From: Candidatus Geothermocultor quzhuomuensis
Lineage (GTDB): Bacteria > Actinomycetota > Aquicultoria > Geothermocultorales > Geothermocultoraceae
DNA: 64,000 bases
Direction of reading: 5' to 3'
Assembly: GCA_015711795.1 (NCBI GenBank)
Contig: JACVJC010000002.1
Span: 58,115-122,114 of the forward strand
Shown here: positions 34,644 through 40,408 of the stretch, piece after piece
Numbering within the stretch: position 1 is the first letter of the stretch
Layout of the letters: each line of letters opens with the position of its first letter
The notes under the pieces: generated by a model
What the model saw: only the letters and a program-made list of their open reading frames with translations
Databases searched by the model: none
Told to the model about the DNA's origin: nothing
Program-made: the position numbers and the translations under genes

Positions 34644-35420
34644 ATGAAATGTCCAGTTTGTGGCAATGAGATGAAGGAAGGAGAAGAACATTGCTCAGTT
34701 TGTGGAGCTAGGATTGTTAGTGAGGCGGAGGCGCCTACTGTTCCTTCAGAGCAAGTAAGGGAAGGTGTTTCTGCTGGAGAAGAAAGACCAGAAGAAATAG
34801 CCAAACCAGCTGAGGAAGTTCCTCCTTTTGAAACAGGTCCACCTGAGGCAGGTCCACCTGAGGCAGGTCCACCTGAGGCAGGTCCACCTGAGCCGGTGAA
34901 GGAGGAAGAAAAAGTATTTGAAGGAGTTGCTCCACAGGAAGTTATCCCAACTCCATCAGAAGCAATGCCCCCAACTCCTTCAGCTCCATCCGAACCAGTT
35001 ATCGGGCAACCTCCAGCTGTTGAAGAGACAAAAGTACCTGAACCTTCTGAACCTGCACCAGTGGAAGGTACTCTACCAACTACTCCTACTTATGAATCAA
35101 TTTCTCCACCTGTTACTGAGCAACCTCAACCACCTGTTGAGCCTTTATATGCACCACCTACAGAGCCAACAGTAGCTAGACCATCTGAACCAACTCCTCC
35201 ACCTGAAGCAGTTCAACCAGCTGTTGAGCAACCTCCAACAGCGCCTGAGGTAGTGGCACCAACTGAGCAAGCAGTCGCCCCTGTAGCAGAGGAGGTTGCT
35301 CCACCCAAGAAAAAGCGAGGAATATTTCGTTACCTTCTTATTGCTTGGGTAATTATTATGATCCTGCTTGCTCTTGTTTTAGTAACAATTATTGCCTTTC
35401 CTAATCTCCTTTCCCGTTAA
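34644..35420 (+). CDS. Zinc-ribbon, Pro/Glu-rich membrane protein
   Basis: 258 aa. N-terminal zinc ribbon (MKCPVCGNEMKEGEEHCSVC), then about 190 residues of low-complexity Pro/Glu/Val sequence including four tandem copies of GPPEA, and a C-terminal membrane helix (YLLIAWVIIMILLALVLVTII) with a basic KKKR in front. Tail-anchored topology with the ribbon in the cytoplasm is likely. Not a named family. ATG start after GGAGGGAGG. It is followed by a charged secreted protein gene; together they may form a surface unit (inference). Confidence 0.75.
   Translation: MKCPVCGNEMKEGEEHCSVCGARIVSEAEAPTVPSEQVREGVSAGEERPEEIAKPAEEVPPFETGPPEAGPPEAGPPEAGPPEPVKEEEKVFEGVAPQEVIPTPSEAMPPTPSAPSEPVIGQPPAVEETKVPEPSEPAPVEGTLPTTPTYESISPPVTEQPQPPVEPLYAPPTEPTVARPSEPTPPPEAVQPAVEQPPTAPEVVAPTEQAVAPVAEEVAPPKKKRGIFRYLLIAWVIIMILLALVLVTIIAFPNLLSR
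34834..34893 (+). repeat. Four tandem 15-bp repeats within Pro-rich gene
   Basis: Unit CAGGTCCACCTGAGG at 34834, 34849, 34864 and 34879 (last copy one mismatch), encoding GPPEA. In-frame, so copy-number change would lengthen or shorten the protein without frameshift. Each unit contains CAGGT/ACCTG arms. Confidence 0.9.
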
Positions 35421-35495
35421 AACCATTTTGAAACTTTTATCACCTTCTTTCGTTTAATTCGATAGAGAAATTAAAAGGGAAGGAGGTAAAGGAAT

Positions 35496-36200
35496 ATGAA
35501 AAAATTTCTTGCTGGTGTTCTTGTTTTGCTTCTTATTTTTCCAGCCTTAGCTATGGCAGCTGAAGAATCAGGTAAAGAAGCTGTTTTATCTGAATCAATT
35601 TCTTTAACCGAGACCTCAGTAGGAGAAACTACTGAAACAACACAACTACCTAAATCAGCTCTTTCAACTACAGAGACAACTCCTCCTGCTTATGTTATTA
35701 GTATTTTCAGCTATCAAATAATTATTGTCCCGCCAACTCAAGAGGGTGAGTCTGTCTCAATTGGTCTTTTTAAAGTTAGTGAGAGCGGAGAAGGTGAAGA
35801 AATTGCTAATTTTACAGTTGGCGGAATTGTTGGTAAGGCTGTTTCGGCTGCTGCTAGAGCAATAGCCCCTGGTGTTGAGCATGGTAAGGTAGTTAGTGCT
35901 TATGTCCATAAAATAAATGAAGAACGAAAGAAAGCTCGAGAGGAAGCAAAAGAGGAAAAGAAGGAAGAAAAAAAAGAAGCAAAAGAGGAAAAGAGAAAGG
36001 AAAAAGAGCTTAGAAAGAGGGAAAGAAAGGAAGAGACAACTGAGACTGTTCAAGAGGAAGAAGCTGATTCAACGGAAATAATAAAAGGAAAAGTCGAAAA
36101 GGAAGGTAAAGTTGAAAAGGAAGGAAAAGGTAAAGGTGATAAAGGAGGCAAGGGAAAAGATAAAGGCAAAGAAAGCGAGAAAGAGACTGAAGAAGATTAA
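35496..36200 (+). CDS. Secreted protein with highly charged Lys/Glu-rich tail
   Basis: 234 aa. Clear signal peptide (KKFLAGVLVLLLIFPALAMA) followed by a Thr/Ser-rich part (SLTETSVGETTETTQLP), a moderately hydrophobic middle (YVISIFSYQIIIVPP), and a tail of nearly only K, E, R, G and D (residues about 145-234, with KVEKEGKVEKEGKGKGDKGG repeats). Resembles no enzyme; the tail could bind wall polymers or nucleic acid, or form an extended coil. A good terminator follows, so the gene ends the operon. Confidence 0.7.
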   Translation: MKKFLAGVLVLLLIFPALAMAAEESGKEAVLSESISLTETSVGETTETTQLPKSALSTTETTPPAYVISIFSYQIIIVPPTQEGESVSIGLFKVSESGEGEEIANFTVGGIVGKAVSAAARAIAPGVEHGKVVSAYVHKINEERKKAREEAKEEKKEEKKEAKEEKRKEKELRKRERKEETTETVQEEEADSTEIIKGKVEKEGKVEKEGKGKGDKGGKGKDKGKESEKETEED

Positions 36201-36224: not shown

Positions 36225-36252
36225 AAAGCCCTCGACCGATCGGGGGCTTTTT
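36225..36252. terminator. Rho-independent terminator between convergent genes
   Basis: AAAGCCC(T)CGA...TCG(G)GGGCTTT stem followed by TTTTTATT, with AAA on the other side so that it may work in both directions. Its right end touches the stop codon of the editing-domain gene. Confidence 0.8.
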
Positions 36253-36676
36253 ATTCTAAGGAAATAATTCGCGCAATTCTTGAAAGAGGATGACCCTTAG
36301 CTTTAATTTCTAGGGAATTAAACCAGCCAAAGGGGGTTCTCGTTACTTCAAAACCTTTATTTTTTAATTTTATCTCAATTTTTTTTAGGAGATTGAGAGC
36401 AGTTTCAGGGCTTGAGAGTTCTCCAAAAAGATGAGCGAAAGAATGAAGGACTACTTTTTTCACTCCAAGTAGAGCCAAGTGATTTTCGATTTCTTTTACG
36501 GTTTTTTCCGCTACCAGTTCAGGATTAGTTTCGTCTTTTTTCTCGGAACTAGCCAGGATAAGGAGGGCATCAGTGACTTCAGTTACTGGGTTGTCATATT
36601 CTTCAATCACTTTCGAGCGCCCTTTTTCCGTTATTGTGCATTTAAAATATTCTACATGCCAGCCTAGAAATCTCAT
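36251..36676 (-). CDS. Stand-alone archaeal-type threonyl-tRNA editing domain
   Basis: 141-aa protein with the fold signature of the archaeal ThrRS N-terminal editing domain (PF08915), related to D-aminoacyl-tRNA deacylase. The blocks are MRFLGWHVEYFKC at the N terminus, ILASSEKKDETNPELVAEKT, VVLHSFAHLFGELSSPETAL, and RTPFGWFNSLEIKAKGHPLSRIAR, in the archaeal order and spacing. That domain hydrolyses Ser-tRNA(Thr). Here it is free, with no synthetase core, implying trans-editing. Bacterial ThrRS normally carries an unrelated N2 editing domain, so this is unusual. A strong AAGGTGA precedes the ATG. No family paralogue is seen in the window. Confidence 0.85.
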   Translation of the reverse strand: MRFLGWHVEYFKCTITEKGRSKVIEEYDNPVTEVTDALLILASSEKKDETNPELVAEKTVKEIENHLALLGVKKVVLHSFAHLFGELSSPETALNLLKKIEIKLKNKGFEVTRTPFGWFNSLEIKAKGHPLSRIARIISLE

Positions 36677-36801
36677 TTTTCACCTTCTTTAACGATATCA
36701 TAATTGACCTTCTCGAGTAATTCTAGAAGGCATTTAATAAGCTGAACAGATGGCATGGGAGCAAGTTCTTTGGTAGGATATTTGAGGGGAAATAAAACAA
36801 G

Positions 36802-38423: not shown

Positions 38424-39392
38424 TTAATCATATCTTTTTTGTATCCTTTTAAGTTCTTCTAAAAACTTCTTGGTCAAATTAGGTGGTTCAAGAATTTTTG
38501 CTCGATCACGATAAGGTAGAACACATTGTTTAATTAACCAAGGATAATTATTTCTATTAACTTTTAGTGTTAAAATACACTTCCCATCGGGAAATTCTTC
38601 AATTCGGCGCTTACTCCATTTGTCTTTAATTAGCCAGGCAATCTCTTTACTGTATAGTATTTTAACCGTTACATCATCTGGTGATTCAATATAACTTTGA
38701 TTAATTAAATTTTCAATCTTTAAATCTTTTGGCTTCTTAAATTTTTTTTCAGTGGGGGTAAATTCCTTTATTCGGTCAATTCTGAACTTTTTAACAACTT
38801 TATCTTGATGACAAAAACCAATCAAATACCAAGTGCTTCGAGCTAGTACCATTTCGTAAGGGTCAACTTCTCTTTCGGTGATTTGGTCTTTACCTAAACC
38901 GTGGTAAACAAGTTTTCCTGTGACATTTTTTTTAATGGAATAATCGAGATTTTTTAATATTTCTTCACTAGTGTTAGGTTCGACAGTCATACCAACAAGC
39001 TTAAAGTGTTGGTCAACTTGTTTAATTGCTTCATGGGAAAGGGCTCCTCTCACTTTATTAATTACACTTTTCATGGAATCGATAAGTTCAAGATTAGATT
39101 TTTTAAGGAGCTCTGCTCCCATAAGAATTGCAACAGCTTCTGATGAAGAGAGGCTTACAGGCCGGGATAAAAAGTCAGCAAATTTTATTTTTACTTGGTC
39201 GTCTTGAATATCAACATCAATTAAATCATAGGGGGTATATTCAGGTAATCCACAAAGGCTAATTGTTTCCAAAAGATGGAGTATTTTTTTTCGTTCTAAC
39301 TTAAATTTGCGACAAAGATCGTTAATCTTTACACCCTGATGTTGAACAATGTATGGAATTAAAAGTAAAGCTTCTCTTATTTCTTCCACCAA
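38424..39392 (-). CDS. WYL-domain transcriptional regulator, PafC-like
   Basis: 322-aa regulator: N-terminal winged-helix segment (IREALLLIPYIVQHQGVKINDLCRKF), WYL domain (TWYLIGFCHQDKVVKKFRIDRIKEF), and C-terminal WCX extension. In mycobacteria PafB and PafC form a heterodimer activating the RecA-independent DNA damage response. Here the two genes are 5 bases apart in the same arrangement. There are no proteasome genes nearby, as expected if the pair is ancestral. Assignment to PafC rests on its position and architecture. Confidence 0.82.
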   Translation of the reverse strand: MVEEIREALLLIPYIVQHQGVKINDLCRKFKLERKKILHLLETISLCGLPEYTPYDLIDVDIQDDQVKIKFADFLSRPVSLSSSEAVAILMGAELLKKSNLELIDSMKSVINKVRGALSHEAIKQVDQHFKLVGMTVEPNTSEEILKNLDYSIKKNVTGKLVYHGLGKDQITEREVDPYEMVLARSTWYLIGFCHQDKVVKKFRIDRIKEFTPTEKKFKKPKDLKIENLINQSYIESPDDVTVKILYSKEIAWLIKDKWSKRRIEEFPDGKCILTLKVNRNNYPWLIKQCVLPYRDRAKILEPPNLTKKFLEELKRIQKRYD

Positions 39393-39397
39393 GTCAC

Positions 39398-40408
39398 CTA
39401 ATATAAAGATTCAATAGATTTAAGGATTTTTTTCATCTCTTTTCTTAAGTGAGTTGGTTCTAAGATTTCAATATCATTTCCCAAGGTTAAAGCAAAATCA
39501 ATAAAATTTGAGAGGTTAAAAACCCTTACTTTAACAGTACTGCTTCCATCAGGAAAATCCTTAAGCTCTAGGCTATTTTTAAAAATTCTCTTAACCCAAA
39601 ATGATACTTTGGGAGAGAGCCAAACTTTCACTTGTTCTTCTTCATCTTGCTCATATTCCCAAGGTTGGATATCATGATATTTTTCAGGACGAAAATCTTG
39701 AGGAATTTCAAAGTCAGGCTCCACGCTTTTTCTTGTGATTATTTTTAAATTTCTCATTCGTTCGACTTTATATGTTCTGATGTGTTGATGAAGGTGACAG
39801 AATCCAACTAAATACCATGACCATCTTTCGTAAAAGATATGATAGGGGTCGACCTTCCTTTGGCTGGTTTCTCCTGTTTGAATATAGTAATAGGAAAAAG
39901 TAATCCTTTTACGGTTTCTAATTGCTTCGTCGAGTATTTCAACATATTGAGCAACTCTTTCATGGTAGCGGGAGGAAAAATCAAAGTATCGAGGGAATGA
40001 CTCTCTTGCCTTTTCTTCATTAATTTCACTTTCAGGAAAAGTTGAAGATATTTTTAAAAGAGCACTTTCTAAGTTTTCTTGGAATGGATAGCCGCGTTGT
40101 TTAGCTAAGAAATAAAATAAGCTTTGTAAAGCAATAATTTCTTCAGGGGAAAAGCTAATATCAGGCAAATAGCGTTTTTCTAAAGGAATAAGGTAACCTC
40201 TTTCCGATTCTGGAACATTACCAATATAGTCAATCTGAATGCCTAATTCAATTAGTTCTTTTTTATCTCGGTGAAACATTTGGTGGAGAGCTTCAAAGGT
40301 TTTTCCTTGGTATCCTAAGACTTTGTCTCCAATCTCTTCTAGCGATACAGGTCTTTTTAAAGAATAAAGGAAGCTGAGGAGATTAAGTTGCCTTTCAATT
40401 TTCCTCAT
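39398..40408 (-). CDS. WYL-domain transcriptional regulator, PafB-like
   Basis: 336 aa, with an N-terminal HTH (RQLNLLSFLYSLKRPVSLEEIG), a WYL domain with SWYLVGFCHLHQHIRTYKVERM, and a WCX C terminus. First gene of the tandem WYL pair. WYL domains sense nucleic-acid fragments or small ligands to control DNA damage or phage-defence genes. The SxxWYLVGFCH sequence is clear. ATG start without a strong ribosome site. Confidence 0.82.
   Translation of the reverse strand: MRKIERQLNLLSFLYSLKRPVSLEEIGDKVLGYQGKTFEALHQMFHRDKKELIELGIQIDYIGNVPESERGYLIPLEKRYLPDISFSPEEIIALQSLFYFLAKQRGYPFQENLESALLKISSTFPESEINEEKARESFPRYFDFSSRYHERVAQYVEILDEAIRNRKRITFSYYYIQTGETSQRKVDPYHIFYERWSWYLVGFCHLHQHIRTYKVERMRNLKIITRKSVEPDFEIPQDFRPEKYHDIQPWEYEQDEEEQVKVWLSPKVSFWVKRIFKNSLELKDFPDGSSTVKVRVFNLSNFIDFALTLGNDIEILEPTHLRKEMKKILKSIESLY

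Follow-up and report, generated by a model that had tools for sequence, protein, structure and literature searches.

The gene at positions 36251-36676 of the window (the whole stretch of 64,000 nucleotides from Candidatus Geothermocultor quzhuomuensis that was analyzed) encodes a free-standing threonyl-tRNA editing domain of archaeal type, in which four of the seven side chains closest to the scissile bond differ from those of the archaeal domain. The membership of the protein in the PF08915 family and its DTD-like fold are certain. A trans-acting deacylase is the natural reading of a free DTD-like editing domain of the archaeal ThrRS type in a bacterium, and we give an even chance to its being a DTD-fold deacylase that acts in trans on aminoacyl-tRNA 3' ends and has been respecialized from plain Ser-tRNA(Thr), probably toward tRNAs with U73. 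The gene and its nearest features are as follows.

36251..36676, minus strand: stand-alone PF08915 (tRNA-Thr_ED) protein of 141 aa, from the open reading frame, Pfam profile, fold and alignment
36681..36687, minus strand: Shine-Dalgarno-like GAAGGTG, a few bases upstream of the ATG, read from the sequence
36225..36250, no strand assigned: hairpin of 11 pairs with a T-tail, between the editing-domain gene and the convergent gene 35496-36200, z -3.6

The open reading frame is intact, with an ATG start and a stop codon within the window, and its product carries the motifs SFAHLF, TPFGWFN and KGHPLSRIAR. GAAGGTG is a plausible ribosome-binding site for it, and the terminator-like hairpin would serve the plus-strand gene 35496-36200, possibly both genes. 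That convergent gene encodes a secreted-type, Lys/Glu-rich protein; within 34644-36200 (plus strand) a zinc-ribbon membrane protein with PPEAG repeats is followed by this low-complexity protein, which has no Pfam match. A carbon-nitrogen hydrolase gene is divergent from the editing-domain gene. There is also a 27-codon ATG frame, MPSVQLIKCLLELLEKVNYDIVKEGEK, at 36674-36756 on the minus strand; it closes with an ATGA that overlaps the beginning of the editing-domain gene, an arrangement resembling translational coupling. The minus strand also encodes WYL/WCX regulators in tandem at 38424-40408, of which one has an HTH of PafC type; this arrangement is mainly familiar from the Actinomycetota and hints at the phylum of the host.

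The sequence-only reading had proposed a stand-alone archaeal ThrRS-type editing domain in a bacterium with no synthetase attached, and the bare 141-residue frame with its full-length profile match bears this out. PF08915 matches residues 1-137 along profile positions 1-136 of 137, with an E-value of 5e-37 and 127.4 bits against a cut-off of 30.2. No Pfam family besides PF08915 matches the protein, PF02580 (DTD1) included, and a profile search of the host genome gave this protein as its one PF08915 match. There is no fusion to ThrRS catalytic or anticodon-binding domains, and the bacterial ThrRS of the host is encoded on another contig. The NF011500 model (ThrRS-ed, a Ser-tRNA(Thr) hydrolase) reaches 66 bits over the N-terminal part only, against a cut-off of 362 bits, and a full-length match including the anticodon domain was not obtained. 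The closest solved structure by sequence is 4rrf, the Methanocaldococcus jannaschii ThrRS editing domain (E 1e-27), followed by those of Pyrococcus abyssi and Aeropyrum pernix. An AlphaFold2 model built from 28 aligned homologues (pLDDT 93.4, pTM 0.88) recovered the fold of 4rrf rather than a different one: a Foldseek comparison with the PDB gave a query-normalised TM of 0.91-0.93 at 1.5-1.6 Å, and it placed all of the archaeal ThrRS editing domains on top, with the DTDs after them (TM about 0.57-0.67).

In the P. abyssi domain, the seven side chains within 6 Å of the scissile bond are Pro80, Phe81, Ala82, His83, Tyr120, Lys121 and Glu134; Glu134 is contributed by the partner subunit and holds the amino group of the substrate, the oxyanion hole is formed by main-chain nitrogens of residues 81 and 82, and the catalytic group is the tRNA 2'-OH (PMC4491819). 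Four of these seven side chains differ in the window protein, with Pro80 replaced by Ser, Tyr120 by Phe, Lys121 by Asn and Glu134 by Arg, and Phe81, Ala82 and His83 are retained. The published mutants bear on these positions. A Y120A/E134A double mutant retained activity and selectivity, so that side-chain changes there are tolerated, and K121M and its equivalents in the P. abyssi, A. pernix and M. jannaschii domains were severely compromised on Ser-tRNA(Thr), with the water displaced (PMC4491819), so that with Asn121 the window protein could be an enzyme of little or no activity.

Alignment of 73 PF08915 domains separated two kinds. Lys121 together with a non-basic residue 134 is found in 43 of 43 domains of the classical kind, comprising all of the ThrRS-fused domains and 11 free archaeal ones. 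The altered kind lacks Lys121 and has Arg or Lys at position 134 in all 30 cases, every one a free protein, five from the host class and 25 from elsewhere; since these counts come from related sequences they stand for two kinds and not for 30 independent events. Altered domains occur in the host class, Bacteroidota, Calditrichota, Cloacimonadota, Planctomycetota, Thermodesulfobacteriota, some methanogens and Njordarchaeota; a genetically tractable laboratory strain of Methanosarcina carries both kinds. Of 137 positions, the 10 that best tell the two kinds apart include all of 80, 120, 121 and 134 (hypergeometric p 5e-4), and positions 81, 82 and 83 are mostly conserved across the 73 domains. 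The altered kind is not described in the open-licence literature that we searched, which does cover SepCysS-linked and SepRS-fused domains (PMC5424206, PMC8762117), and it may be described elsewhere. We propose, at slightly under an even chance, that the free proteins with Arg/Lys134 and no Lys121 form a distinct, scattered family of DTD-fold hydrolases with a rebuilt, charge-reversed shell and an undescribed substrate other than L-Ser-tRNA(Thr), to which the host class may have come independently of the Bacteroidota/methanogen branch.

A further suggestion of the sequence-only reading, that the free domain compensates for a ThrRS without an editing domain, did not survive inspection of the host ThrRS. 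This enzyme is encoded outside the window at 34811-36487 of contig C12, has 576 residues from its own ATG, matches TIGR00418 from 1 to 564 and aligns with Escherichia coli ThrRS (1qf6) from residue 61 to near the end. We take H73, H77, K156, D180 and C182 of the E. coli enzyme, in these numbers and roles, to be the N2 editing-site residues, and all five of the aligned residues are present in the host enzyme. It lacks the N-terminal TGS domain, which is also missing from the ThrRS of one class relative (G245) and present in the others; TGS loss was considered as a partner trait and rejected, since the host and G245 lack TGS but G256 and G302 combine the gene with a longer ThrRS. Compensation for a missing DTD is ruled out as well, because the host encodes DTD1, beside a RelA/SpoT-like gene. 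The host thus lacks neither threonine editing, given the intact N2 site of its ThrRS, nor DTD. The tRNA_SAD domain occurs in only two large host proteins, ThrRS and an 886-residue frame taken as AlaRS, and thus no free AlaX was seen. Other bacterial hosts of the free domain have a full-length bacterial ThrRS where one was found, although in one of these a simple pattern did not pick up the Cys-x-Gly-Pro-His motif; no ThrRS was found in G303, a genome that is 79% complete.

Published work reports a possible U73 dependence of the archaeal editing domain, a requirement of bacterial DTD for a purine at that position, and U73 in bacterial tRNA-Gly (PMC8762117, PMC11295145). All three tRNA-Thr of the host end in U73, as do the tRNA-Cys and two tRNA-Gly that were examined, and nine other host genomes gave U73 in 20 of 20 tRNA-Thr. 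It is also seen in tRNA-Thr of class members both with and without the gene, so it is permissive and not diagnostic, and we rejected it as an explanation of which class members carry the gene. The host tRNAs thus allow a U73-directed enzyme without predicting its carriers. Ala-tRNA(Thr) recognized through a G4:U69 pair, as for ATD, was likewise rejected as a substrate, the three host tRNA-Thr having G-C or C-G at 4:69.

In the reading that we favor, the protein would be free-standing and presumably dimeric, would bind the tRNA 3' adenosine as its archaeal relatives do, and would rely on a water activated by the tRNA 2'-OH and on an oxyanion hole to which Phe81 and Ala82, both retained, contribute their main chain. 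The amino acid pocket would be retooled by Ser80, Phe120, Asn121 and Arg134, with the charge reversed at the residue that, from the other subunit, holds the amino group of the substrate. Such a pocket would most likely serve to clear a charge that is not plain L-Ser on tRNA(Thr). For the substrate, the proposal that asks least would be mischarged residues, such as D-amino acids or Gly, on tRNAs with U73 (Thr, Cys); these would not be served by bacterial DTD1, which follows the purine-73 rule (PMC11295145). In a single case, Draconibacterium, the free gene lies about 13 bp from a DTD gene, which would fit a U73-directed DTD relative covering the tRNAs that DTD1 leaves unserved.

Two other readings are each unlikely. 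The protein might be an ordinary trans-editor that removes L-Ser from tRNA(Thr) as a backup to the N2 domain, for instance when the N2 cysteine is oxidised, with Arg134 replacing Lys121 in positioning the water. The similarity of the window protein is highest to true Ser-editing domains, KGHP and GW are kept, the host tRNA-Thr have the U73 just described, and archaeal free domains do act in trans (PMC4491819, PMC8762117). However, Lys121 and Glu134 are replaced in every member of the altered kind and the N2 site of the host is intact. The Aenigmatarchaeota genome G313 provides a counterexample: its ThrRS of 495 residues apparently lacks the editing part, and its free domain keeps both Lys121 and Glu134. 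These two are likely to be a true trans-editing pair in a DPANN archaeon; the free domain there looks as a genuine compensating editor should, and the window protein does not resemble it.

It is also improbable, to much the same degree, that action on aminoacyl-tRNA has been lost and that the fold now binds or hydrolyzes some other adenosine-linked or metal/redox-related compound. The loss of Lys121 and the charge reversal at 134 would suit such a change, as would gene neighborhoods elsewhere. At seven loci in the Bacteroidota, a PF02579 (Nitro_FeMo-Co) or PF02579-like gene comes directly before the free gene, and one of these loci (L010) has such a gene on each side and a radical SAM gene between them; in methanogens the free gene is paired, also at seven loci, with a conserved gene for a SAM methyltransferase of about 200 residues. 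Since neither neighbor is a translation gene, a nontranslational role stays alive for that other branch. Neither neighbor is seen in the host class, however, where the free gene has no shared neighbor and no conserved tRNA-related one; a conserved neighborhood of the window gene was therefore discarded as a line of evidence, the PF02579 and methyltransferase associations being those of other branches. The retention of His83 and of the oxyanion-hole residues also speaks against the loss of aminoacyl-tRNA action, as do the relative beside DTD and another (L007) downstream of a CCA-adding enzyme gene.

The distribution of the deacylase that we propose is patchy. In the host class PF08915 matched in six of 36 genomes, five of them with intact genes from five different families and the sixth (G224) with a remnant; absence from the other 30, together with the decayed copy, indicates that the gene is dispensable. 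On contig 27 of G224, deletions have joined the remnant to the end of the beta-propeller gene downstream, of which G256, a member of the same genus, has an intact copy; either the gene is being lost or the assembly is at fault. In a sample of 297 genomes from the phylum the gene was confined to members of the host class, and in the Bacteroidota sample three of 297 genomes matched, two of them above the cut-off. A scan of named genomes gave, besides a fused archaeal ThrRS, bare domains in Bacteroidales, Flavobacteriaceae, Draconibacterium, Caldithrix, Cloacimonadota, Desulfohalobiaceae and other Thermodesulfobacteriota, Planctomycetota, Methanosarcina, Njordarchaeota and Aenigmatarchaeota.

The tree resolves three groups: the 25 other altered domains (100/99), the host class (100/97), and the fused plus classical free domains (98/96). 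After the removal of eight positions of the active-site region, which included 120, 121 and 134 and left the neighboring discriminating positions 79, 80, 135 and 136 in place, support for the split of the fused and classical domains fell to 87/84 and the trait was still one change on the tree. Constraining the host class together with the archaeal fused domains was not rejected (AU p 0.30), and grouping it with the other bacterial members to the exclusion of the archaeal ones was rejected (AU p 0.003). The host class is thus a clade of its own, apart from the other bacterial members, the two outcomes leave room for both transfer from archaea and an old bacterial family, and the charge reversal at 134 may have arisen once or twice. 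The same permitted grouping, the patchy distribution and the decayed G224 copy could be taken to mean a recent transfer of a functionless archaeal ThrRS fragment that is now drifting, which we regard as very improbable: the gene is intact in five class families at 47-62% identity to the window protein, with TPFGWFN and KGHP[LI]SR[IV]AR invariant, and so is kept by selection. Least credible of all is a part in the Sep-tRNA(Cys)/SepCysS cysteine pathway. In its favor are reports of such linkage in Euryarchaeota and of fusion with certain bacterial SepRS (PMC5424206, PMC8762117), and an arginine that could bind phosphate; against it, SepCysS was not found in the host (TIGR02539 best 32 bits against a cut-off of 365), and the free archaeal domains whose neighbors were judged by eye, on sequence, to be SepCysS-like genes belong to the classical kind, with Lys121 and a non-basic residue 134.

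Proofreading that does without catalytic side chains has its standard example in the DTD/ThrRS-NTD fold, and a family that keeps the backbone machinery with four of the seven scissile-bond side chains swapped offers a direct test of substrate choice within the fold. Its hosts have ThrRS editing already, and the one tested has DTD1 as well; the family may expose a tRNA charging error that bacteria need cleared and that is so far unnamed. Under current annotation these proteins would be labeled as threonyl-tRNA editing proteins, a name for which their active site gives no support.

Among known systems, the N-terminal editing domain of archaeal ThrRS (P. abyssi, M. jannaschii, A. pernix) is alike in its whole-length match, fold, Phe81-Ala82-His83, PFG and KGHP motifs and short size of 140 residues; the window protein differs in being unfused, in its residues at 80, 120, 121 and 134, and in coming from a host with a ThrRS of the bacterial N2 type. 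The crenarchaeal ThrRS-ed/ThrRS-2 system also has its editing domain apart from the aminoacylating enzyme, but ThrRS-ed has its own anticodon-binding domain and the Lys/Glu pair, whereas the window protein is a bare domain. The free tRNA-Thr-ED proteins beside archaeal SepCysS are equally bare but keep the classical residues, and the SepRS-fused tRNA-Thr-ED is also bacterial but reportedly keeps the serine motif (PMC5424206, PMC8762117), in contrast to the window protein, whose host is without SepCysS. DTD1 shares the fold, stands alone and likewise has a residue other than Lys at position 121 (Met in DTD), but the window protein has no close sequence similarity to it, and its host encodes a DTD1 separately.
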